Assembly: GCF_003150675.1 (NCBI RefSeq)
Contig: NZ_QGGB01000010.1
Span: 186,001 to 250,000, forward strand
Length of the DNA: 64,000 nt
Direction: 5' to 3'
DNA from: Rhodohalobacter mucosus
GTDB taxonomy: Bacteria > Bacteroidota > Rhodothermia > Balneolales > Balneolaceae
Positions 39,809-52,649 of this stretch are shown piece after piece. The number at the start of each line of letters is the position of its first letter. Position 1 is the stretch's first letter. Position numbers and translations under genes: made by a program. A model generated the notes under the pieces. That model was not told the DNA's origin. It worked only from the letters and a program-made list of their open reading frames with translations, and searched no databases.

Positions 39809-39839
39809 ATATATTGTATATCGTAAATATACAATATAT
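39809..39839 (+). promoter_or_regulatory. Perfect 12-bp inverted repeat operator overlapping the arsR-type start
   Basis: ATATATTGTATA (39809-39820) and TATACAATATAT (39828-39839) are exact inverted complements around TCGTAAA. The right arm covers the first two bases of the ATG at 39838. An autoregulatory site for the ArsR-family repressor is the obvious reading, since AT-rich 12-2-12-type palindromes are their usual targets. Confidence 0.75.
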
Positions 39840-40158
39840 GATCTCCTCATCAGAGCAATTTGAACCTGTTTCTCTTGCGTATGCACGCTATGCTGATGCA
39901 CTGTCGCATCCTGCAAGACTCACCGTGCTGGAAAAACTGGCTGAATTGGGTGTGGCAACCTGCGGAGAACTAACCGGAATGCTGCCGCTGGCGCAGCCTA
40001 CCGTATCACAGCATCTAAAAAAGCTGGTTGACTCGGGATTGGTTCAGCGCAGGAAATCGGGCTTGAAGTCCCTTTATTCCCTCAATGAAGAGGCGGTTCA
40101 GGAGTACAGAAGCCTCTCCTTCGGGCTACTTAACAAACTTTCAAATCCACTGAATTAA
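39838..40158 (+). CDS. ArsR-family winged-helix transcriptional regulator
   Basis: 106 aa from ATG 39838. The winged helix is ALSHPARLTVLEKLAELGVATCGELTGMLPLAQPTVSQHLKKLVDSGLVQRRKSGLKSLYSL; the recognition helix is AQPTVSQHLKKLVDSG. The metal motif ELCVCDL of ArsR/SmtB is absent; the equivalent is VATCGEL with one Cys, so the signal may not be a metal. The operator overlaps its own start, and no Shine-Dalgarno is visible. Confidence 0.9.
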   Translation: MISSSEQFEPVSLAYARYADALSHPARLTVLEKLAELGVATCGELTGMLPLAQPTVSQHLKKLVDSGLVQRRKSGLKSLYSLNEEAVQEYRSLSFGLLNKLSNPLN

Positions 40159-41347: not shown

Positions 41348-41628
41348 AAAATAATTTCTTTTATTATGACAACAATTAGAGAGAAAACAAAGGGATAGAA
41401 AATCCCGGTATTTGCATCCAGAGAGATAAACATTAGATTTTTTTAACTATTTACTTTGTAACAACGGGAGACCCCGAAGGTCTTTTATATAACGAAAAAA
41501 GAAAAAGCCTTCGACAAAATAGATCATCACAATAATAAGAGTCTGAAGCCTTCATATATAATGGTTTCTGACGGATTACTACGACAACTTACGATTAAGC
41601 AATCAAAACACTATTAAGGGTCTGAATT

Positions 41629-42360
41629 ATGATTGAGAGCATAACAAAAAAAGATCTGGAAAATAAGATCGATGAGTATCTGGAGGGAAATCTAACTCCT
41701 GATCAGATCGATGAACTCTGGGTTGAACTCATCCAGGATGAGTACTATATGGATTATCTGAAAACGGCAGCCAGCCTTAAGGGACTTGCCGATAAGAAAA
41801 ACTCCCCTGCTACCCTCTTTACCCTCACCGGTATGAAGCAGGTATATCTGACAGCAGCTGTACTGATCATGTCAGCCGTATTGGTTCTTTACACACTGTA
41901 TGATCAGGGCACGCCGGCTAGTGTGGAACCCCTGGCCACTATTGAGCTCGACTACTACCGCTCGGCAGATGGCACGGTAACCGAAAACAATCTTTCCGAT
42001 ATATTGATGTCTGTTATTTCCGCTGCAAACTCAGGGGATACCGATGCAGCCATCAGCATAATTAACAGCGAACTGGAGTCCACAAGCGACCCCGCTGTTC
42101 AGCATGAACTGATGATTACCGCAGGATCCATCCTGTACAATATCGGTCAGTATGACCAGGCTTTGGCGTGGTTTGAAAATGCATCGGTGATTGACACGCC
42201 CGACATGCAGATGAAAGAGAGAAATTATTGGTATCTCGGTAACACGTATTTTCAGCTGAATATGATAACTGAAGCCAAATACGCACTCGAAAATGCCTAC
42301 GAACTTAACGGAGCCTACAGCAGAATTGCAGAAAGTTATCTGAGAGCACTATCCGATTAA
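41629..42360 (+). CDS. Single-pass membrane TPR protein with anti-sigma-like layout
   Basis: 243-aa protein. Residues 1-69 are an acidic helical N-terminal part (LENKIDEYLEGNLTPDQIDELWVELIQDEYYMDYL) that resembles the N-terminus of Bacteroidota anti-sigma proteins, in which a short helical domain precedes the membrane. One transmembrane helix is at about 72-91. Residues 100-243 hold TPR-like repeats (LMITAGSILYNIGQYDQALAWFENA; YWYLGNTYFQLNMITEAKYALENAYEL). Predicted topology is sigma-binding part inside, TPR part outside. No zinc motif is seen. It sits 4.5 kb from the ECF sigma gene, beyond the CHAT gene, and ends in a terminator. Confidence 0.7.
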   Translation: MIESITKKDLENKIDEYLEGNLTPDQIDELWVELIQDEYYMDYLKTAASLKGLADKKNSPATLFTLTGMKQVYLTAAVLIMSAVLVLYTLYDQGTPASVEPLATIELDYYRSADGTVTENNLSDILMSVISAANSGDTDAAISIINSELESTSDPAVQHELMITAGSILYNIGQYDQALAWFENASVIDTPDMQMKERNYWYLGNTYFQLNMITEAKYALENAYELNGAYSRIAESYLRALSD

Positions 42361-42397
42361 TTTTCTTCCCTGCAGTATCCGTTTACAAATTTCCACT

Positions 42398-42430
42398 TAC
42401 CCCGGCTTCTTAAAACACCGGGGTTTTTTT
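42398..42430 (+). terminator. Rho-independent terminator after the membrane TPR gene
   Basis: ACCCCGG (42399-42405) pairs with CCGGGGT (42418-42424), followed by a T run. Confidence 0.9.
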
Positions 42431-42602
42431 ATGCCCACTGATACCCTGATTCCACCACACCCGGCGAATCTGTGCGTACACTGCTTCAGATGAAGGATAC
42501 GCTGAGAGCTTTGCCAAAGCTATTCGTAAATCAACCGAACCCGTAAATCATTGGGCGTGCGATCGCAACAGGCTTCAGCAATTCATAAAAAAGAGGTGCC
42601 GG

Positions 42603-45600
42603 TTAAACCCATTCACGCTTTCGCCCAATCACAACCGATATGGACAGTAGGAACAGTACCGCAAGAAGTGTGTTCGACGTTGTTTCAGCCTCTCGCGCAA
42701 GTAACGGCCGGTTATCCCCGTTCAGAATGTAGGGACCCCAAAAGTGCGGATTAGCGTTTTTTGTTTTAATGAAATCCATTTTGGCTTTCTGCAGGGACTC
42801 TGATTTGGAGAGGCCTTCATTCAAATATTCGTAAAAGAGATTTGCAAATTCCGCCGCATAGTGGTCATTGACAGACCACGCGTTCAGTACCAGGCTTCTG
42901 ACGCCCGCATAGCGCAGGGCACGATTGATTCCCATAATACCCGTTCCCTGCAGATAACGGTCGCCTCCCGATTCGCATGAATTCAGCATCACAAGTTCAT
43001 TCCGGAGATTCAGGTCGAACAGTTCATACGCAAACAGCTGTCCCTTCACTGTTTCTCCATCTTGCGTATCACCGTCTGCGTAGAAATGCAGTGTTGAAAA
43101 GAGCGGATCGCTATCTGATACTTCACTGTGCGTTGCCATATGCAGTACGCGGGTTTTGCCCGCAATCTCCCTGAAATCAGCACTTGTGGCTTCCTGATTG
43201 GTAAATGAACGGCTTTTATCAAAACGCTGAAGTCCATCGGCCACGCTCCGTACTTCTTCGGGCGCCCGCGGCAGAGACACCAGACTCCTTCCGGTTTCTT
43301 CGTTTTTAAAATCGGCTACACCGAATCCTGCAAAATCGTAATCGTACGAAATGTTTTCTTCTTTTTTGGTCAAATCTTTCAAACTGTTCAGCATGTAGAA
43401 ATCCGCCCTTTCGATCAGGTATTCCGTGGAACCGTAGCTAAAAGGGGTATCGGGCAAACGAACGGGCATTACGGCGAGGGGCAGCTGATACAGGTAACCG
43501 TCTGGTACAATGATAAACGAGCTATAATCCTCATAGAGTGAATTCAAGCCAAGAAAACGGCCAATTTCATAAAATTTCATCAGGTCAGTCTCACCCGTGA
43601 AAATTGATTCAAGAGCACTCTCAAAAAGATTCCGCGTCGCCTCTGTCACTTCCAGCTTTCTGATTTCTGTTTTATCGCGGTCGATAAACGCGGTGTAATA
43701 GTGCGAATTGATTTCGGTGATATGGACCATTACCTGTTGGGGACGGAGGTTTCTTTTGAGGGACCATAGCTTAACCTCCTCATAATCGGGTGTTCCTGAA
43801 TATTGCCGCAGCAATGCCCTTCGCTGTGCGGAGAGCTGTTCCAGATCACTTTTTATCTGAAGCCTCTCCTGGCCCGAAGTCGACACAAGCTGGCGTCTGA
43901 GCCGATCCATCTCATCCCGAAGATTTTTCTCTTCAAGAAGCTGCTCATCATTCAGGCGGCTGGCCTGCACAAGCGGACTGTCGGTTAGAGATGCATCATT
44001 AATGGTTCTGACGCGGTCGAGCAGATTGATTACCTCGTCAATCCTGTTTTGGCTTATCAGAAAATCGGCATAGGTCTCGAAGAGGTAGGTGTACTCTTTT
44101 TCCAGGTTCCAGTAGCCGGATTCGACGTCCGAACTGTTTCTCGCACGTTCAAATACTACCTCTATGAGGTCTGCGAATTCCGTACCGGCCTGTCGCACAT
44201 CCCCGCGAAGTGACTGGATATGTGATGAGACGGTGTTGGCATACACCAATACTCTGAAAGGCAGTACGGATGTATCGTATGTCCTGAATTCGTTTATATT
44301 CTCCGCAGCCTCACTTAAACGTCCCGTTTCAGCCCGTATCTGGGCCAGATTTACCAGGGTCTGAAGATAGTTTGCCGTATTGCTGTTTGACGCAGAGGAC
44401 TCCAGTATACGGTTAAGAAGGCGCTCACTTTCCACCCAGTTTTGCTGTTCCAGGTAAATATCGGCTTTTGTTTTAAGAACCCTGTCCCTTAATCTGTAAT
44501 CCGTATCCTGATCAATTAATTTCTCGGTCATATCCAAAACACGCAATGCCTGTTCGGTGTTGTTTAGATACTCCTTTTCAAAAAGCGCCCTGGATATATT
44601 TATAGCGATCAGGCCACTTCTATTATCATTTTGCTCCGCAAGTTCTTCTGCAAGGTCCAAATAGTCCTCTGCAAGATCCCAGTTTCGAAACTTTCTGTAA
44701 AAAACATGCAGATTCCGATAAATTTCGTCCTGATAATCTGTATTTCCGGTAGCACGCGCAAGATCAAGGGCTCTGAGCTGTGTCTCAACATAGGCATCCG
44801 TCTCACCGGTATTGAAGTAAACAAGGCTTAGGTTGTTATAAACAATTACCTTTCCCCTGTCGGAGATCGAGTCTATATTGTCTACAAGTTGCCTGAAAAC
44901 CTCTCTGGCTCTCTGAAAATTTCCCAATTCTATTAAATACGCGCCCTGACTTACCAAAATAGAAAGCCTTCCGTTGCTGTCTCCAACATAGGCGCTCAAC
45001 GGCAGTGTATAATCTCTCTGAACTGCCAGGCTTTTGTCCAGACGCCCCTGGCTGTAAAATGCAAAGTCGATACCCCAAAAGAGATTTCTCTTTAGTGTCG
45101 ACGGTGGTATGTGGGGAAGCTCCAAGTTATCCTCAAAAATGCTGTACATCACGCTATAGCGGTCCACTTCAAACGCTGCTTTGGAGAGTGTGGCTCTGAA
45201 CAGGTCGTCAATAAACGGCCCGAACTCCACCAGGTCAAACCGTTGCTCCCAATGCTCTACAAAAGAATCGAATAGTAGTTCATCGGCCAGTCTATTGTTT
45301 CTCAGGTAGTAGAAAATCAAAAATTGATGGAAGTGAAACTGGGTAACATCGATGTCACCTTCTGTAAGCAACCGGCCATCCCTGGCGGCTTCATTGACTG
45401 CTGCCAATTCACCCGGTAATTGCGGACCCTCTGAGTAAAATGAATTGTAGAGTGTACTTCGAACCTCTCCATCCGGCTCCAGCAGCAGGTTAAACAGCAG
45501 AAGCGATTCATCACGAAGAGTGCGATTAATAGCCAGAATAGCTCCCTCAGCCGATTCGCTCTCACGAATTCCGGAACGCACAATATCCGACTGTATAGCC

Positions 45601-45767
45601 TGCAGAAGCTGCGGCCTTATTTCGTCCGGACTTGAGTAGTAAAGTGTGACCTGCGCCCAGACCGAGTGGGGAGAATTCCCCTCCCGGTTGTATCGTTCTG
45701 CATACTCAGTGGGATCTACCTGGATCTGAGCAGCCAGCAGGGCAGATAGAAATAGTAACGTGTGCAT
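42603..45767 (-). CDS. Exported TPR-CHAT domain protein (caspase-like)
   Basis: 1054-aa protein. Residues 1-15 look like a short signal peptide (LLFLSALLAAQIQ). Residues about 150-560 are TPR repeats (YNNLSLVYFNTGETDAYVETQ; NLHVFYRKFRNWDLAEDYLDLAEEL; TLVNLAQIRAETGRLSEAAENI), followed by a coiled-coil (about 600-650, EEKNLRDEMDRLRRQL). The C-terminal CHAT domain has H880 in LHMATHSEV and C931 in MLNSCESG, the His-Cys pair of clan CD peptidases, then GINRALRYAGVRSLVLNAWSV. A last hydrophobic helix and KREWV tail (about 1030-1054) anchor it. It lies downstream of three small lipoprotein genes in the same direction (76 bp gap). Confidence 0.9.
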   Translation of the reverse strand: MHTLLFLSALLAAQIQVDPTEYAERYNREGNSPHSVWAQVTLYYSSPDEIRPQLLQAIQSDIVRSGIRESESAEGAILAINRTLRDESLLLFNLLLEPDGEVRSTLYNSFYSEGPQLPGELAAVNEAARDGRLLTEGDIDVTQFHFHQFLIFYYLRNNRLADELLFDSFVEHWEQRFDLVEFGPFIDDLFRATLSKAAFEVDRYSVMYSIFEDNLELPHIPPSTLKRNLFWGIDFAFYSQGRLDKSLAVQRDYTLPLSAYVGDSNGRLSILVSQGAYLIELGNFQRAREVFRQLVDNIDSISDRGKVIVYNNLSLVYFNTGETDAYVETQLRALDLARATGNTDYQDEIYRNLHVFYRKFRNWDLAEDYLDLAEELAEQNDNRSGLIAINISRALFEKEYLNNTEQALRVLDMTEKLIDQDTDYRLRDRVLKTKADIYLEQQNWVESERLLNRILESSASNSNTANYLQTLVNLAQIRAETGRLSEAAENINEFRTYDTSVLPFRVLVYANTVSSHIQSLRGDVRQAGTEFADLIEVVFERARNSSDVESGYWNLEKEYTYLFETYADFLISQNRIDEVINLLDRVRTINDASLTDSPLVQASRLNDEQLLEEKNLRDEMDRLRRQLVSTSGQERLQIKSDLEQLSAQRRALLRQYSGTPDYEEVKLWSLKRNLRPQQVMVHITEINSHYYTAFIDRDKTEIRKLEVTEATRNLFESALESIFTGETDLMKFYEIGRFLGLNSLYEDYSSFIIVPDGYLYQLPLAVMPVRLPDTPFSYGSTEYLIERADFYMLNSLKDLTKKEENISYDYDFAGFGVADFKNEETGRSLVSLPRAPEEVRSVADGLQRFDKSRSFTNQEATSADFREIAGKTRVLHMATHSEVSDSDPLFSTLHFYADGDTQDGETVKGQLFAYELFDLNLRNELVMLNSCESGGDRYLQGTGIMGINRALRYAGVRSLVLNAWSVNDHYAAEFANLFYEYLNEGLSKSESLQKAKMDFIKTKNANPHFWGPYILNGDNRPLLAREAETTSNTLLAVLFLLSISVVIGRKREWV

Positions 45768-45843
45768 AGGATACCGATCTGTATAAGATTACCGTCCGAT
45801 CTGACAGATTAAGGCCTTTGCAGATCAATATCCAACCACAAAA

Positions 45844-46041
45844 TCAGAGGCCCATATCTGGCTTTTCAACGATAGGATCCATCTTGTCGTCGGTGGTGTT
45901 GTCCCACGTTCCGTCGACGCGTTCAATGGTAATTCCCTTGGTTTCTTCCTCATTGAGATCTGAGTTGGCATCGGTTACGGTTGCGCAGCCGGCAAAAAGA
46001 ATGAGCAGGGTTACAGAGAGTATAGATTTGAGAGCTTTCAT
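45844..46041 (-). CDS. Small lipoprotein A (tandem triplet)
   Basis: 65-aa predicted lipoprotein: signal with lipobox LFAGC (C19), then a 46-residue acidic mature part ending TTDDKMDPIVEKPDMGL. It is identical in protein sequence to the next copy, and the unit including the spacer repeats with a 262-bp period. There is no recognised domain. It is the last of three lipoprotein genes before the CHAT gene. Confidence 0.8.
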   Translation of the reverse strand: MKALKSILSVTLLILFAGCATVTDANSDLNEEETKGITIERVDGTWDNTTDDKMDPIVEKPDMGL

Positions 46042-46105
46042 TTGTCGTTACGTTTGATTGTTGAGTTACTGAGAGTGAGTTATTAAATAGACAGTTTTGG
46101 ATCGA

Positions 46106-46303
46106 TTAGAGGCCCATATCTGGCTTTTCAACGATAGGATCCATCTTGTCGTCGGTGGTGTTGTCCCACGTTCCGTCGACGCGTTCAATGGTAATTCCCT
46201 TGGTTTCTTCCTCATTGAGATCTGAGTTGGCATCGGTTACGGTTGCGCAGCCGGCAAAAAGAATGAGCAGGGTTACAGAGAGTATAGATTTGAGAGCTTT
46301 CAT
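46106..46303 (-). CDS. Small lipoprotein B (identical to A)
   Basis: 65-aa lipoprotein, residue for residue the same as the copy at 45844. The DNA of the coding part looks identical; only a handful of bases in the spacer differ (for example around 46080 versus 46350). This is a recent tandem duplication, or one kept identical by gene conversion. See copy A for features. Confidence 0.8.
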   Translation of the reverse strand: MKALKSILSVTLLILFAGCATVTDANSDLNEEETKGITIERVDGTWDNTTDDKMDPIVEKPDMGL

Positions 46304-46367
46304 TGGTCGTTACGTTTGATTGTTGAGTTACTGAGAGTGAGTTATTAAAGAGACTGTTTCGGATCGA

Positions 46368-46580
46368 TTAGAGGCCCATATCTGGCTTTTCAACGATCGG
46401 ATCCATCTTGTCATCGGTGGTGTTATCCAGTGTTCCATCGATGCGTTCAATGGAGATACCTTTGCTTTCATCTTCGTGAAGATCCGCATTTGCGTCTGTA
46501 ACGGTTGCGCAGCCTGCGGCAAAAAGAATTGCGAAGGAAACTGCTGAAAGTTTATAAAGTATTGTTTTGAAGCGTTTCAT
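46368..46580 (-). CDS. Small lipoprotein C (diverged paralogue)
   Basis: 70 aa from the ATG at 46578-46580; an upstream in-frame start at 46592 is less likely. The signal (MKRFKTILYKLSAVSFAILF) ends in lipobox AAGC (C24). The mature part is homologous to A and B but substituted at several sites (for example HEDESKG for NEEETKG, and GTLDN for GTWDN). The last 17 residues, TTDDKMDPIVEKPDMGL, are unchanged, marking the C-terminus as the conserved functional part. First gene of the presumed lipoprotein-CHAT transcript. Confidence 0.8.
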   Translation of the reverse strand: MKRFKTILYKLSAVSFAILFAAGCATVTDANADLHEDESKGISIERIDGTLDNTTDDKMDPIVEKPDMGL

Positions 46581-46592
46581 TGTATTACCCAC

Positions 46593-46864
46593 AGTTTAGT
46601 TAGTGATTTTTTGAACATTATAGAGGTTAATGACAAGAGAATTTTCCAGTCAGAACGTTACAAAAAAAATCATAAGTGAAATATTCTTAAGAAGCTACGA
46701 TAAGATTAAATTTTTAATATTTGATGGAAAATCGCATGTTATTTGTGAGCAGGATTTGTATGCTCAGGGAGCCTGACTTCGGTTGGTATTCCCATCAGGC
46801 TTTCAAGGCAGAACCGTTTTGAATATTATAACAACAGACTAATCCACAACCAGCCCCCCAATAC
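46593..46864. other. Divergent control region between lipoprotein C and the sigma gene
   Basis: 272 bp of AT-rich DNA without a gene. A hairpin with arms AGCCTGA (46770-46776) and TCAGGCT (46795-46801) lies 64 bp before the sigma start. This region must hold the promoters of both transcripts and would be the first place to look for sigma-dependent boxes. I cannot define a -35/-10 pair with confidence. Confidence 0.5.
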
Positions 46865-47419
46865 GTGCGTATTGATTATTCCGAATTGGTTACAGCCCTC
46901 AGGAACGGCGATGAAATGACGGCCAATCAGCTTCTCAGTGAAGTGATGCCCAGGCTGGTGGAATATCTGCGCGTTGTAATGAAGGCAGAAGAGAATGTAG
47001 CTCACGAATGCGCTCAACAGGCATTTACGGACGTTTTTGAGCGGATTCAAAAAGGTAAAATCAAAGAGAAGAAATATATTTTCAGCTATCTGCTTACGGC
47101 TACCAGAAATGAGTTCCTTCGCTATTCAAAACATCAGCATCGCTTTGATACCGACTCAAACGCTGCCTATGAACAGTCGGAACCTGCTGAACAGATCAAA
47201 GCATTGATGGACAAAGAGCGGATGCTTCTTTTGGAGGAGTGCCTTTATGAGCTTGACAGTGAAAGCAGGGTTTTTATCCGATACCTGATCGAAAATCCAG
47301 GCAAATCAAGTAAAGAGTATGGCAAGAAATTTGACATGAGTGAGGTTAATGTGCGCACCAAAAAATCACGTATCGTGAGCCAGCTGCATTTTTGCTATAA
47401 ACGCAAATCCTCTGAGTAA
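46865..47419 (+). CDS. ECF-type RNA polymerase sigma factor
   Basis: 184-aa sigma-70 family protein of ECF size, starting at GTG 46865 (VRIDYSEL). Region 2 spans about 40-90 (ENVAHECAQQAFTDVFERI, then YIFSYLLTATRNEFLRYSKHQHR). Region 4 spans about 120-180 (LYELDSESRVFIRYLIENPGKSSKEYGKKFDMSEVNVRTKKSRIVSQL), including the helix-turn-helix. It is divergent from the lipoprotein-CHAT operon, with 284 bp between them. It probably directs genes in this locus. The anti-sigma candidate is at 41629. Confidence 0.9.
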   Translation: MRIDYSELVTALRNGDEMTANQLLSEVMPRLVEYLRVVMKAEENVAHECAQQAFTDVFERIQKGKIKEKKYIFSYLLTATRNEFLRYSKHQHRFDTDSNAAYEQSEPAEQIKALMDKERMLLLEECLYELDSESRVFIRYLIENPGKSSKEYGKKFDMSEVNVRTKKSRIVSQLHFCYKRKSSE

Positions 47420-47428
47420 ATCCCCTTC

Positions 47429-48031
47429 CTAAAACGGAATTTGCACTGTCATTGCCGTTCCGCTGAAGTGAATATTATCTAAAATCCCGATCAGTTTTTC
47501 GCTTTGTGTCCGGTTCAGCAGGTAGAGAACTACATCAAATGAAAACAGGAATCCACCCTGTAGTATCAACGACTGACCGTAACCGGTTAACCGTTCGCTC
47601 TCTTTGCGAAGGCCGCGCTCCCACAGGAAGGCTCCCAGCGCCATGTATCCCACATCCAGGCCTGCATTAAAGAGCAATATCTTCTCAAAGGTGTGATATT
47701 CACTGATGGTCTCTGCCAATGTCAGATCCAGACTCTGATTTTTTAATCCGTAGTATCCAAATCCGGCAATTGCAAGGTTCACCGTATTCCATGCGGCATT
47801 CATCTGGTGAAAATAGCGTACGGATCCGCCGGTCCGGGTCATGCCAACCGTACCGATCAGCAAATTACTGACAGCCCACCCGCCCAGCACGGCCATGCCT
47901 CCCGTATTGAGCCCCACGCGCTCCCGATTGATCTCCACCAGATCCGGAGCAGATGACTCCTGAGCCGTCGCCCATCCCATGAATAACAGATTTATCAAAA
48001 GAAAGAGAGTAAGCCGTTTGTAATGAGTCAT
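47429..48031 (-). CDS. Membrane protein, possibly DUF6992 family
   Basis: 200-aa protein with a signal peptide (to about 23, ending ATAQ) and four hydrophobic segments. The sequence VEINRERVGLNTGGMAVLGGWAVSNLLIG is typical of a Bacteroidota membrane family that I recall as DUF6992, though I am not certain of the number. Function is unknown. It converges on the sigma gene (9 bp between stops) and is followed on the same strand by 9 bp and pdeM upstream. Confidence 0.6.
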   Translation of the reverse strand: MTHYKRLTLFLLINLLFMGWATAQESSAPDLVEINRERVGLNTGGMAVLGGWAVSNLLIGTVGMTRTGGSVRYFHQMNAAWNTVNLAIAGFGYYGLKNQSLDLTLAETISEYHTFEKILLFNAGLDVGYMALGAFLWERGLRKESERLTGYGQSLILQGGFLFSFDVVLYLLNRTQSEKLIGILDNIHFSGTAMTVQIPF

Positions 48032-48857: not shown

Positions 48858-51800
48858 CTACTCCGCTTCAAGCTGTTTCTGCATTTTCATCACGCGATCG
48901 ATCAGTTTTTCCGACGACATTCGCTCCCGGAGCCTGTCTACAAAAATCGGAAACGCGAAGGGCGAAAAACGATCCACTTCCCTGAACACCACCTCCTGGT
49001 GCCGGATTCGCTGCAGCGCACTGCGGATTCGCGCCTCGTCCAGCTGCACCTGCAGAACTTCATCAAAAGCCTGTTCAATCAGCAAATTATCGGGTTCATG
49101 CTCCAGAAAAACATCAAAAAATAACCCTGACGACATCTGAAGGTGTTTGCCTGCTTTCTGATTTCCCGGAAAGCCCGGAAATACCAGTCCTGCAATCTGA
49201 CTGATATCCCTGAACCGGCGCTTTGCCAGCTCCGCATCGTTCAGGGTACTCATGATATCACTGACAAGATTCTTCTCTGAAAAAAGATCTTTTTCGAGCG
49301 CCTCTTCCAGAGGGATATCCTGATCGGACAACAGTTCAAATCCATAGTCATTCATTGCAATGGAAAAGGTGATGGGCTTGATTTTCGAGAGGCGGTGAGC
49401 CACCAGCGCAGACATCCCCTCGTGAACATAGCGTCCCTCGAACGGGAAAAAGAAACAGTGGCATCCCTCCTTCGACCATGATTTCTCAATCAGAAACTGG
49501 TGGTCTCCGGGCAGTACAGATCTCTCCTTCTGTATAGACAAAATCGGCTCAATCGCCTGCAGTTCGGGCCCCTGCGCCTCCCCCACTCCGGATATCGCCT
49601 CCTGCAGTTTATTCCGCAGAAGCTCCGACATGTTTGACGACAGCGACATGCGTCCGCCCATGTAACTGGGCACTTTGCTGCTCGACCCTTTGGTTTTTCG
49701 CACATATGCGGTCATATCCCTGATTCGCACCAGTTCCAGGTTTCGTCCCGCAAACCAGAACGTATCACCCGTATTCAACTGTGAAAGAAACCATTCTTCG
49801 ATTCGTCCCAGCGTACCGCCTTTCAGGTATTTAACCCGGAGCATACTATCGCTGGCAATGGTTCCGATCGTCATGCGATGACGTCGCGCTATTTTTCGGT
49901 CGAACACTCTCCAGAGTCCGTCTGCATCTGCCTCCACCTTCCTGAACTCATCATAACGGGTCAGTGCTTTTCCGCCGCTTTGAATAAATTTCAGAATCCA
50001 GTTCCATTCATCATCCCGGAGAGTCTGGTAGGCAAATGTACCTGACACCTCCTCACGCACCTGTTCCGGCTTAAATCCCTCCGAAACGGCCAGCGTTACC
50101 AGGTACTGAATCAGTACATCGTAGGGCTTGAGAACGGGTATACGGCTTTCCACATTTGTGGCTTCAAGTGCATTTTTAAGGGCTGATGCCTCTATAAGCT
50201 CCAGTGCGTGTGTAGGCACAAACCAGATGGTGCTCTCTGCATCGGGCCGGTGCCCGCTTCTTCCTGCGCGCTGCAGGAAACGGGCCACCCCTTTCGGGCT
50301 TCCTATCTGGATCACCTTGTCGACCGGTGCGAAGTCGACACCCAGGTCGAGGCTGGAGGTGCAAACAACCGTTTGAAGCAGGCCGCTATGCAGTGATTCC
50401 TCCACCCAGCTGCGGATATTACGGTCGAGTGATCCGTGATGGATAGCGATGGTACCGGCCAGATCCGGCCTGGCTTCCAGAATTTCACGGAACCAGATCT
50501 CTGACTGTGCACGGGTATTTGTAAAGATGAGCGTGGACCCTTCCTGTTCAAGGATCGGCAGAATTTGCGGAAGCAGTTTGATGCCTAGATGGCCCGACCA
50601 CGGAAAATTCTCCATGCTATCCGGTATCACGGTTTTCATCGTGATTTTTTTGTGGATATCAGATCGAATGATCACACTTTTTTCCGGTTTCCTCATCCCC
50701 AGAAGTACATCAAATGCCTCTTCCAGGTTACCGATGGTGGCCGATATCCCCCACACCTGCAGATCCGGCTTCATGCCCCGCAGCCGGCTTAAACCAAGTT
50801 CGGTCTGCGTACCGCGCTTGGAGCCGATCAGCTCGTGCCATTCGTCCACCACCACGGTCTGTAAATTTTTAAATCGGGCCGGATATCCTTTCTGTGCAAG
50901 CAGTACATGAAGGCTTTCGGGGGTACTGATCAGAACCTCCGGCATCTGCTTTTTCTGGCGCTGCTTCACCGACTGCGACATGCGTCCGCCCATGTAACTG
51001 GGCACTTTGCTGCTCGACCCTTTGGTTTTTCGCACATATGCGGTCATATCCCTGATTCGCACCAGTTCCAGGTTTCGTCCCGCAAACCAGAACGTATCAC
51101 CCGTATTCAACTGTGAAAGAAACCATTCTTCGATTCGTCCCAGCGTACCGCCTTTCAGGTATTTAACCCGGAGCATACTATCGCTGGCAATGGTTCCGAT
51201 CGTCATGCGATGACGTCGCGCTATTTTTCGGTCGAACACTCTCCAGAGTCCGTCTGCATCTGCCTCCACCTTCCTGAACTCATCATAACGGGTCAGTGCT
51301 TTTCCGCCGCTTTGAATAAATTTCAGAATCCAGTTCCATTCATCATCCCGGAGAGTCTGGTAGGCAAATGTACCTGACACCTCCTCACGCACCTGTTCCG
51401 GCTTAAATCCCTCCGAAACGGCCAGCGTTACCAGGTACTGAATCAGTACATCGTAGGGCTTGAGAACGGGTATACGGCTTTCCACATTTGTGGCTTCAAG
51501 TGCATTTTTAAGGGCTGATGCCTCTATAAGCTCCAGTGCGTGTGTAGGCACAAACCAGATGGTGCTCTCTGCATCGGGCCGGTGCCCGCTTCTTCCTGCG
51601 CGCTGCAGGAAACGGGCCACCCCTTTCGGGCTTCCTATCTGGATCACCTTGTCGACCGGTGCGAAGTCGACACCCAGGTCGAGGCTGGAGGTGCAAACAA
51701 CCGTTTGAAGCAGGCCGCTATGCAGTGATTCCTCCACCCAGCTGCGGATATTACGGTCGAGTGATCCGTGATGGATAGCGATGGTACCGGCCAGATCCGG

Positions 51801-52649
51801 CCTGGCTTCCAGAATTTCACGGAACCAGATCTCTGACTGTGCACGGGTATTTGTAAAGATGAGCGTGGACCCTTCCTGTTCAAGGATCGGCAGAATTTGC
51901 GGAAGCAGTTTGATGCCTAGATGGCCCGACCACGGAAAATTCTCCATGCTATCCGGTATCACGGTTTTCATCGTGATTTTTTTGTGGATATCAGATCGAA
52001 TGATCACACTTTTTTCCGGTTTCCTCATCCCCAGAAGTACATCAAATGCCTCTTCCAGGTTACCGATGGTGGCCGATATCCCCCACACCTGCAGATCCGG
52101 CTTCATGCCCCGCAGCCGGCTTAAACCAAGTTCGGTCTGCGTACCGCGCTTGGAGCCGATCAGCTCGTGCCATTCGTCCACCACCACGGTCTGTAAATTT
52201 TTAAATCGGGCCGGATATCCTTTCTGTGCAAGCAGTACATGAAGGCTTTCGGGGGTACTGATCAGAACCTCCGGCATCTGCTTTTTCTGGCGCTGCTTCA
52301 CCGACTGCGACACATCACCCGTCCGGCGCTCCACACGCCACGGTATGCCCAAATCATGTACAACCTGCTGCATGGCCGATTCAAGGTCGCGTGCCAGTGC
52401 ACGCAGCGGGGTTATCCAGAGAAGCCTCAAGCCGTTGTTTTCCTTTGACTGGTAATCATCCGGGTTTTCCCGGATCCATTTCATCAGTTCTGGCATGAAG
52501 AGGGCAAACGTCTTGCCGCTGCCTGTGGGAGCGTTGAGCAGACCGAATTTTCCATCCAGTGAAGCTTTCCAGACATTCTGCTGCCATTCGAACGGCGACC
52601 AGCCCTTTGAATCAAACCAGTTTTCAACTATCAATTGTGCATCGGGCAT
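48858..52649 (-). CDS. Ligase-associated DEXH-box (Lhr-like) helicase with internal duplication
   Basis: 1263-aa frame. Residues 1-113 hold the Q-motif-like WSPFEWQQNVWKA and Walker A APTGSGKTF (40-48). Residues 114-557 and 558-1001 are two identical 444-aa copies, each with the Walker B box VVVDEWHEL, SAT motif (WGISATIG), motif V/VI (STLIFTNTRAQSEIWF; QRAGRSGHRPD) and the Lhr winged-helix region. Residues 1002-1263 are the normal C-terminal part. Removing one copy gives 819 aa, the usual length of the ligase-associated helicase. Copy 2 has no Walker A of its own. The duplication keeps the frame. It is upstream of pdeM. Confidence 0.88.
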   Translation of the reverse strand: MPDAQLIVENWFDSKGWSPFEWQQNVWKASLDGKFGLLNAPTGSGKTFALFMPELMKWIRENPDDYQSKENNGLRLLWITPLRALARDLESAMQQVVHDLGIPWRVERRTGDVSQSVKQRQKKQMPEVLISTPESLHVLLAQKGYPARFKNLQTVVVDEWHELIGSKRGTQTELGLSRLRGMKPDLQVWGISATIGNLEEAFDVLLGMRKPEKSVIIRSDIHKKITMKTVIPDSMENFPWSGHLGIKLLPQILPILEQEGSTLIFTNTRAQSEIWFREILEARPDLAGTIAIHHGSLDRNIRSWVEESLHSGLLQTVVCTSSLDLGVDFAPVDKVIQIGSPKGVARFLQRAGRSGHRPDAESTIWFVPTHALELIEASALKNALEATNVESRIPVLKPYDVLIQYLVTLAVSEGFKPEQVREEVSGTFAYQTLRDDEWNWILKFIQSGGKALTRYDEFRKVEADADGLWRVFDRKIARRHRMTIGTIASDSMLRVKYLKGGTLGRIEEWFLSQLNTGDTFWFAGRNLELVRIRDMTAYVRKTKGSSSKVPSYMGGRMSQSVKQRQKKQMPEVLISTPESLHVLLAQKGYPARFKNLQTVVVDEWHELIGSKRGTQTELGLSRLRGMKPDLQVWGISATIGNLEEAFDVLLGMRKPEKSVIIRSDIHKKITMKTVIPDSMENFPWSGHLGIKLLPQILPILEQEGSTLIFTNTRAQSEIWFREILEARPDLAGTIAIHHGSLDRNIRSWVEESLHSGLLQTVVCTSSLDLGVDFAPVDKVIQIGSPKGVARFLQRAGRSGHRPDAESTIWFVPTHALELIEASALKNALEATNVESRIPVLKPYDVLIQYLVTLAVSEGFKPEQVREEVSGTFAYQTLRDDEWNWILKFIQSGGKALTRYDEFRKVEADADGLWRVFDRKIARRHRMTIGTIASDSMLRVKYLKGGTLGRIEEWFLSQLNTGDTFWFAGRNLELVRIRDMTAYVRKTKGSSSKVPSYMGGRMSLSSNMSELLRNKLQEAISGVGEAQGPELQAIEPILSIQKERSVLPGDHQFLIEKSWSKEGCHCFFFPFEGRYVHEGMSALVAHRLSKIKPITFSIAMNDYGFELLSDQDIPLEEALEKDLFSEKNLVSDIMSTLNDAELAKRRFRDISQIAGLVFPGFPGNQKAGKHLQMSSGLFFDVFLEHEPDNLLIEQAFDEVLQVQLDEARIRSALQRIRHQEVVFREVDRFSPFAFPIFVDRLRERMSSEKLIDRVMKMQKQLEAE
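49643..52306. repeat. 1332-bp tandem duplication inside the helicase gene
   Basis: Unit A is 49643-50974 and unit B is 50975-52306. All translated frames of the two units agree, so the DNA appears identical. GCGACA occurs at 49643, 50975 and 52307, so the junction has 6 bp of microhomology, as expected for slippage or microhomology-mediated duplication. 1332 is divisible by three. Confidence 0.93.

Follow-up and report, generated by a model that had tools for sequence, protein, structure and literature searches.

A conserved sigma factor, lipoprotein and CHAT gene cassette of Balneolaceae as a candidate system for regulated proteolysis of a transmembrane anti-sigma factor

In the type III-E CRISPR system Craspase, an activated protease with tetratricopeptide repeats (TPRs) and a CHAT domain cuts Csx30, an inhibitor of an extracytoplasmic function (ECF) sigma factor; the trigger is RNA, acting through Cas7-11, according to the accessible text of PMC10028731. 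In Myxococcus xanthus, DdvS is paired with DdvA, a transmembrane anti-sigma factor, according to PMC12288465 and PMC4374960, and the former reports that DdvS controls a CBASS-CRISPR defence island. CHAT proteins are also found in the gene neighbourhood of ECF54 sigma factors, for which PMC8999054 proposes proteolytic control with no anti-sigma factor involved. Here, we describe a gene cassette in a 64,000-nt stretch of Rhodohalobacter mucosus DNA (hereafter the window; residue numbers are those of window proteins). Judged from its sequence, the cassette is akin in logic to Craspase and DdvA, but it has a split architecture, with predicted export of the CHAT protein and with lipoproteins. The cassette is probably run by regulated proteolysis, with the CHAT protein as site-1 protease of the anti-sigma factor.

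In the window, a gene for an ECF sigma factor (SIG1) is followed by three divergent lipoprotein genes (C, B and A), a TPR-CHAT gene and, convergent with the latter, a gene for a single-pass TPR protein, here called TMTPR. The initial annotation had placed the five gene types in this way, with the sigma factor divergent from the lipoproteins, and had read the CHAT residues H880 and C931 as intact. Coordinates, family scans and alignment confirm both statements. The features are:

46865–47419, forward strand: ECF sigma factor SIG1, 184 aa (TIGR02937 sigma70-ECF, 47 bits, above cut-off)
46635–46662, reverse strand: ECF-type promoter before the lipoprotein-CHAT operon, TGTAAC-N17-CTCTT, exact
46368–46580, reverse strand: lipoprotein C, with lipobox FAAGC and tail DPIVEKPDMGL
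46106–46303, reverse strand: lipoprotein B, a small lipoprotein in a 262-bp tandem unit
45844–46041, reverse strand: lipoprotein A, a small lipoprotein in a 262-bp tandem unit
42603–45767, reverse strand: TPR-CHAT protease, predicted to be exported, 1054 aa (Pfam CHAT, E 7e-46, plus TPRs)
43254–43256, reverse strand: codon of CHAT residue E838, proposed S1 (P1-Arg-binding) residue, which co-varies with the partner Arg
43128–43130, reverse strand: codon of catalytic H880, invariant in 32/32 aligned cassette CHATs
42975–42977, reverse strand: codon of catalytic C931, invariant in 32/32 aligned cassette CHATs
41629–42360, forward strand: TMTPR, predicted transmembrane anti-sigma factor, 243 aa, with a FecR-like N-domain, a transmembrane (TM) helix at 69–91, a linker and extracytoplasmic TPRs at 121–242
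41629–41799, forward strand: residues 1–57 of TMTPR, a cytoplasmic anti-sigma-like three-helix domain (helices 2–18, 24–36 and 38–57) aligned by hhalign to FecR-type N-termini
41950–41964, forward strand: proposed cleavage site of TMTPR, D108-Y-Y-R111/S112, with the conserved Arg
41457–41484, forward strand: ECF-type promoter before TMTPR, TGTAAC-N17-CTCTT with one mismatch

Family scans placed TMTPR in TPR families only and gave no family above cut-off for the lipoproteins; a PADLOC scan assigned TMTPR to no family.

The cassette shares its components with Craspase (Csx29/Csx30/CASP-sigma): a TPR-CHAT protein with a His/Cys dyad, an ECF sigma factor and a sigma inhibitor, the cut being proposed in our case. 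Unlike Craspase, it has a CHAT protein that is predicted to be exported, a transmembrane FecR-like inhibitor, a proposed Arg at P1 and lipoproteins. The aligned Craspase CHAT reads H at the position of E838. A soluble, Csx30-like substrate is not matched in the cassette, where TMTPR has a predicted TM helix and a FecR-like N-domain. No Cas7-11 (gRAMP) was detected among the eight flanking open reading frames (ORFs) scanned against PADLOC and Pfam or in the ORF list for 38–52 kb, CRISPR arrays not having been searched for.

With DdvS/DdvA (PDB 8rot, 8rw5), the cassette shares an ECF sigma factor and a transmembrane anti-sigma factor (predicted in our case), and DdvA is the best PDB match of our CHAT model. 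The aligned DdvA sequence shows ATHG and AAC motifs of the CHAT type. DdvA is a single polypeptide, whereas the anti-sigma factor and CHAT are two genes in 32/32 cassettes examined. The proposed site-1 cut of a transmembrane anti-sigma factor, with further proteases to follow, is also the logic of DegS-RseA-RseP and sigma-E, as far as this is covered in the accessible text of PMC10028731. Unlike in DegS-RseA, the protease would be a CHAT protein (clan CD) and the anti-sigma factor is FecR-like with TPRs.

The N-terminal domain of TMTPR is homologous, by profile, to that of FecR-type anti-sigma factors (DUF4880). FecR partners with a TonB-dependent receptor. Unlike in FecR, the extracytoplasmic part of TMTPR consists of TPRs, and a CHAT gene lies alongside. 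The cassette also differs from ECF54 in carrying, by gene neighbourhood and profile homology, an anti-sigma-like gene. Separase is the closest eukaryotic relative of the CHAT fold and cuts after ExxR in the part of PMC9729208 that was available.

The cassette is kept across the order. Among 128 genomes of Balneolaceae and relatives, CHAT was detected in 101 and TMTPR in 108 (both in 98, CHAT alone in 3, TMTPR alone in 10 and neither in 17), as counted by hand with seven unlisted CHAT-negative genomes placed by elimination and with CHAT matches that include a second paralogue. The genomes that lack both are mostly small or incomplete. We took 32 cassettes apart, namely the window and 31 others chosen by CHAT matches. 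A scan of named genomes, for which the TMTPR alignment had no sufficiently conserved stretch and the CHAT alignment was used, places CHAT loci in Rhodohalobacter halophilus, Fodinibius, Gracilimonas and Balneola, among others. In all 32 cassettes, the TMTPR and CHAT genes converge. One to six tandem lipoprotein genes precede CHAT in 30/30 cassettes whose contig extends far enough (24 by similarity, 6 by reading), and a divergent sigma gene lies beyond them in 26 of the 29 where it would be visible. Many genomes of the order carry a second, paralogous set, in which sigma and TMTPR genes are adjacent and codirectional, with one or two CHAT genes nearby or elsewhere. In the window's own genome, the paralogous pair is at C2 (L135) and a second CHAT gene at C8 (L085).

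The association of sigma factor, TMTPR and CHAT extends through the phylum. A TMTPR profile search returned full-length relatives in other classes, and sigma and CHAT genes were located beside most of the nine distant TMTPR loci taken apart. A second profile, built from these nine proteins, matched in 97/394 phylum genomes (E 1e-12 or better), of which a few are TPR-only. Sixty loci outside the order were then drawn from its matches, non-randomly: the first 20 were chosen to give roughly one per genus, and the other 40 came from families rich in copies or showing unusual cut sites. TMTPR has a sigma gene within 200 bp in 53/60 and a CHAT gene within 8 kb in 47/60. The five-gene arrangement is more than chance, and the conserved co-occurrence that the initial annotation had proposed as a check is thus found, as a full cassette within the order and as the three-gene association beyond it. 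It had also known of no account of this exact gene set. We likewise found no description of a SIG, FecR-like-TPR and CHAT cassette in the open-access literature, subscription papers being mostly outside the search.

SIG1 and TMTPR are very probably a sigma/anti-sigma pair, on the strength of profile homology and gene neighbourhood. With hhalign, the N-termini of 46 in-order TMTPRs matched six FecR-type N-termini at a probability of 93.9 (pairwise E 1.5e-7), and those of the nine distant TMTPRs did so at 95.3 (pairwise E 2.3e-8). Twenty column-shuffled controls, run against the in-order profile, reached 0.92 at most. The FecR side comprised six of 13 candidate rows, after seven were dropped as wrong-frame ORFs or as not FecR-like; two of the six (L306, L307) were over the Pfam cut-off, three were just under it and one (L131) was picked by eye. 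The structural model of TMTPR (mean predicted local distance difference test score, pLDDT, 87) shows a three-helix N-domain at 2–57, a disordered stretch, the TM helix, the linker and TPR helices from 121; Foldseek and VIA matches to the model cover the TPR half only. The earlier suggestion that the N-terminal 69 residues of TMTPR are anti-sigma-like is supported by hhalign, although Pfam DUF4880 is not listed for the window protein at E 1. In the window cassette, TMTPR lies about 4.5 kb from the sigma gene, across CHAT. The adjacent and codirectional genes of the paralogous pairs have the usual sigma/anti-sigma layout.

A third SIG paralogue (L317, G000:C5:432594-433136, and L318) stands alone beside a polyprenyl-synthetase-like gene, recognised by eye, in two genomes of the genus. 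No TMTPR-type anti-sigma factor or CHAT was seen beside it in the 14 kb read.

TMTPR has a conserved arginine just outside the membrane. In 26 diverse aligned TMTPRs, R111 is the only invariant residue between positions 77 and 140, and an Arg at the matching place, about 10–35 residues outside the TM helix, was read in 46/46 members from the order. R111 falls outside any predicted helix of the TMTPR model, and the residue that follows it is S, G, N, D or T in 32/32 cassette proteins. (On reading, two rows that do not belong to the main set, L140 and L143, appeared to be out of register in the scripted count of P4 and P1' residues.) Outside the order, Arg is present in eight of the first nine TMTPRs, L128 being the exception. 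At the 60 loci, the site is Arg 46 times, Lys and Met four times each and Met-like twice, with nothing clear at the other four. All four without a clear site lack CHAT within 8 kb, as does one of the four Lys loci.

The TMTPR relatives L353, L354 and L355, from one genus, have neither a clear juxtamembrane Arg nor CHAT within 8 kb. Their linker is DPG-like, as in the Met-type proteins.

The CHAT protein has features of an exported, membrane-anchored protease. It comprises an N-terminal hydrophobic signal or anchor, a TPR superhelix, a CHAT domain at 750–1018 and a predicted C-terminal TM helix at 1030–1053. By hydrophobicity and modelling, the N-terminal segment is present in 31/32 cassette CHATs and the C-terminal TM helix in 32/32. 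The best PDB matches of the CHAT model are DdvA, the Craspase TPR-CHAT and human separase; the CHAT-domain profile matches the Craspase CHAT and DdvA weakly (Craspase CHAT chain, E 7e-5). VIA matches to the model were filled by TPR proteins, and a phmmer search with the CHAT domain of one distant protein returned nothing useful.

One CHAT residue follows the residue at the TMTPR site. We aligned 85 CHAT domains (32 from cassettes and 53 from outside the order), labelled by the site of the partner TMTPR and leaving out in-order paralogous CHATs, L140 and a 250-aa piece at L333. Column 838 is acidic in 74/75 domains with an Arg partner and in 0/10 without (L128, L330, L338, L339, L342, L345, L356, L358, L360 and L370). 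This difference of 0.99 compares with 0.60 for the second-best of 364 columns. In a separate alignment that includes paralogues, 17/18 rows are acidic at 838, the exception being L128. The column of D968 reads E in eight, N in one and D in one of the ten non-Arg CHATs. In the model, E838 opens the helix after strand 810–816, at modest confidence, where caspase-1 has an S1 arginine, R179. The pairing of E838 with R111 looks like co-variation between an S1 pocket and its P1 residue. Quite probably, CHAT cuts TMTPR at R111.

In separase, the residue for the P1 Arg is an Asp, with Lys at this place in the Craspase CHAT, according to the accessible part of PMC9729208. That position aligns to W+8, which is S, A, Y, L or F in 32/32 cassette CHATs; a separase-type P1 pocket at W+8 was thus rejected, and the pocket would not be the separase one. 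An acidic P4, as in the separase ExxR, is present in 22/32 cassette TMTPRs, and was rejected as a general rule.

Several observations weigh against cleavage at R111 within a conserved regulatory cassette, beginning with the non-acidic W+8 and the incomplete acidity of P4 just described. Of the 46 Arg loci outside the order, eight lack a CHAT gene within 8 kb, and the conservation of R111 may have another cause, for example docking on the TPRs. The CHAT model is middling, with a pLDDT of 73 that falls to 28–35 over residues 931–970, a stretch that contains C931 and D968. L352, with a short CHAT on a long branch, has an Arg partner and no acid at 838. In a quick CHAT tree made without column 838, site type changes three times and acidity four times, which leaves only two independent pairs on well-supported branches (three on all), with a sign test p of 0.5; in 200 random pairings, acidity went in the same direction in 1.9 of 2 on average and in the opposite direction in none. 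Column 838 was chosen after the fact, the Lys, Met-like, no-site and two of the Arg labels were set by eye, and L128 was added later. Because the column was found by looking and the labels are partly by eye, the co-variation is a strong lead, not proof. Finally, three testable cassettes (L068, L069 and L090) have no adjacent sigma gene, and eight of the more distant cassettes (L079-L082, L090, L091, L101 and L102) have the promoter described below at neither gene.

A different reading accepts SIG1 and TMTPR as a true pair and makes CHAT a non-proteolytic sensor or scaffold, with R111 docking the linker onto CHAT or onto the TPRs of TMTPR. Binding alone would also give the co-variation of E838 with Arg, and the linker before R111 is modelled with fair confidence (block 101–110, pLDDT 84) and may pack on something. 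In DdvA, going by structure title and fold match, an anti-sigma domain and a TPR-CHAT-like region share a single chain. Yet the catalytic His and Cys are invariant across the cassette CHATs, the small set of residues after the Arg is kept throughout the cassette TMTPRs, and where E838 is lost the site is mostly Met or Lys in place of Arg. We consider a non-proteolytic CHAT unlikely.

The promoters of the cassette point to control by SIG1. A repeated TGTAACA...ACTCTTG was first seen by reading the DNA before the lipoproteins. TGTAAC-N17-CTCTT precedes the lipoprotein-CHAT operon as well as TMTPR in 16/32 cassettes, and at least one of them in 22/32, as read from a scan of all fetched loci with up to one mismatch and a spacing of 16–18 for exact matches. 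All exact matches in cassette loci are upstream, within 665 bp, of the lipoprotein-CHAT operon or TMTPR. Across 92 family genomes, TTGTAACA-N16-CTCTT has 343 exact matches versus 8 for a reversed control. It is carried by 55/56 genomes with a close SIG1 relative (326 sites, control 3) and by 10/36 without (17 sites, control 5), the split being set by the analyst at a best SIG match of about 1e-38, with relatedness uncorrected and a few of the 56 perhaps resting on the third paralogue. Two cassettes that lost SIG1 have no promoter match, and there are 0 sites in the genomes G011 and G017, from which SIG1 has been lost while the lipoprotein, CHAT and TMTPR genes remain. The sole SIG1 genome without an exact site, G013, has a diverged SIG1, and both of its cassette promoters are altered alike in the -10, to ...ATCCTGT.

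The genes behind the promoter suggest a small regulon. The genes that follow were inspected at 43 sites, of which six genomes supplied 40 and the window's genome 3. They were assigned to types by reading, a single member per type being scanned against Pfam, and one of them is a cassette lipoprotein (L282). MacB/FtsX permeases, HlyD adaptors, response regulators, Hpt proteins and HU-DUF4469 proteins recur in at least two genomes, a DUF5939 adenylate cyclase in four, and a pilin-like MGQQQLLL protein, which starts MGQQQLLLVILVTIIVGIATVVAIN, in five (L205, L271, L286, L294 and L301). The latter matched no Pfam family when L271 was scanned. A T2SSE ATPase and an S8 peptidase were each seen once, and at several of the 43 sites no gene follows convincingly. 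In the window's genome, the three exact matches stand before a permease (L204), the pilin-like protein (L205) and a cyclase (L206). The motif offers a ready reporter and a first regulon.

Together, these results allow a mechanism to be proposed. At rest, the FecR-like cytoplasmic domain of TMTPR would hold SIG1 at the inner membrane. CHAT would be exported and anchored through its C-terminal TM helix, which by predicted topology puts H880 and C931 in the compartment of the TMTPR linker and TPRs. Once switched on, CHAT would cut TMTPR after R111, just outside the membrane, with E838 as the part of the pocket that binds the P1 Arg. Further trimming, probably by a site-2 protease, might then free SIG1. 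SIG1 would fire TTGTAACA-N16-CTCTT promoters, raising lipoproteins and CHAT (a positive loop) as well as TMTPR (a negative loop). Its small regulon would also include a MacB-type permease with HlyD adaptor, the pilin-like protein, the DUF5939 adenylate cyclase, two-component proteins and further genes. Sensing or gating would most likely fall to the lipoproteins, whose C-terminal tail might bind the TPRs or active site of CHAT and so report the state of the envelope.

The initial annotation had guessed that an exported CHAT cuts the extracytoplasmic part of TMTPR and so frees the sigma factor. The core of this guess gains support from co-location, the FecR-type N-terminus, the sigma-tied promoter, the invariant Arg and its co-variation with a CHAT residue; the likely cut has moved to R111 in the juxtamembrane linker, away from the TPR part. 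To our knowledge, CHAT proteases are common in bacteria and few have a known substrate. Here, a candidate substrate, cut residue and specificity pocket can each be put forward, in a system found over much of a phylum. If the proposal is true, a caspase/separase-type protease joins the site-1 proteases of envelope stress responses. The arrangements of Craspase and DdvA may be part of a wider CHAT/anti-sigma theme.

In the window, lipoproteins A, B and C all end DDKMDPIVEKPDMGL, and their 262-bp tandem units occupy 45843–46628, with A and B differing at five positions and the C unit 62% identical. Across cassettes, a lipobox is shared, with conservation at the positions that directly follow its Cys (many read CAxxTDA), and the tail has a [KR]P motif in 27/31 and a Pro in 31/31. 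The SIG1-less cassettes L068 and L069 are among the four without K or R. The invariant tail noted earlier thus applies within this genome, and only a [KR]P-like motif is shared across cassettes. Copies are near-identical within a genome and differ between genomes, as if homogenised (also L066, L070, L074-L076, L097 and L098). This copy number and near-identity suggest a dosage or structural role. No such lipoprotein was noticed at loci outside the order, in ORF lists that covered some of the ORFs of at least 55 aa at the first loci and those of at least 100 aa at the 60 loci, no systematic search for ORFs so small having been made there.

Any particular role for the lipoproteins is tentative, including those of substrate, decoy or ligand that the initial annotation had suggested. 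A tail that acts as pseudosubstrate or is bound by the TPRs is attractive on sequence grounds. Securin is a pseudosubstrate. More speculative, and on balance doubtful as a whole, is the combined idea of phylum-wide envelope alarms in which CHAT is a separase-like site-1 protease co-evolving with its target at one residue each (E838/R111), and in which the lipoproteins of the order, with non-cleavable x[KR]P tails, are securin-like pseudosubstrates. They would keep CHAT shut as long as their sorting to the outer membrane is correct, and would release it, or not bind, once lipoprotein trafficking is perturbed.

That the lipoproteins are themselves the substrates of CHAT, with only an indirect link between CHAT and TMTPR, is quite improbable. 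They are the first genes of the CHAT operon, and tandem, near-identical copies with K or R in most tails would suit this role. A Pro directly after K or R usually prevents cleavage, however. Furthermore, E838 co-varies with TMTPR, and no lipoproteins of this kind were noticed at distant SIG-TMTPR-CHAT loci within the ORF lists described above.

Least probable of all, and very improbable in itself, is a Craspase-like phage or cell-death defence module in which CHAT acts on a trigger: Craspase and DdvA do tie TPR-CHAT folds and ECF sigma factors to defence in the available text of PMC10028731 and PMC12288465, and two window neighbours match some PADLOC models, but the joint presence of CHAT and TMTPR in most genomes of the order is more like a core function than a mobile set, the genes behind the promoter are mostly for envelope and signalling, and Pfam reads the neighbours as ordinary families. 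A defence island as the main reading was rejected on this last ground despite the PADLOC matches. These are a helicase (48858–52649), which matches the models SngC, BrxHI and DpdJ and which Pfam reads as Lhr-type, and an ArsR-type helix-turn-helix (HTH) regulator (39814–40158), which matches CRISPR-associated regulator models (Csa3, E 1e-14) and is an ordinary ArsR HTH in Pfam. The Csa3 match is probably due to the common HTH fold. The remaining scanned flanking genes, of the eight flanking ORFs compared with PADLOC and Pfam, belong to ordinary Pfam families.

Directly downstream of SIG1, on the opposite strand, is a gene for a DUF6992 protein (47429–48031). The Lhr-type helicase gene contains an exact in-frame tandem duplication, with a period of 1332 bp and 1338 bp of identity, which results in a single ORF with two copies of part of the helicase. 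Either a very recent duplication event or an error of assembly could account for it. Elsewhere, at L084 (G000:C7), we observed two more CHAT proteins, of 904 and 1226 aa and of a different type, in a region that also has several genes of unknown kind and an ORF that looks kinase-like by eye; this is possibly an unrelated conflict or signalling locus.

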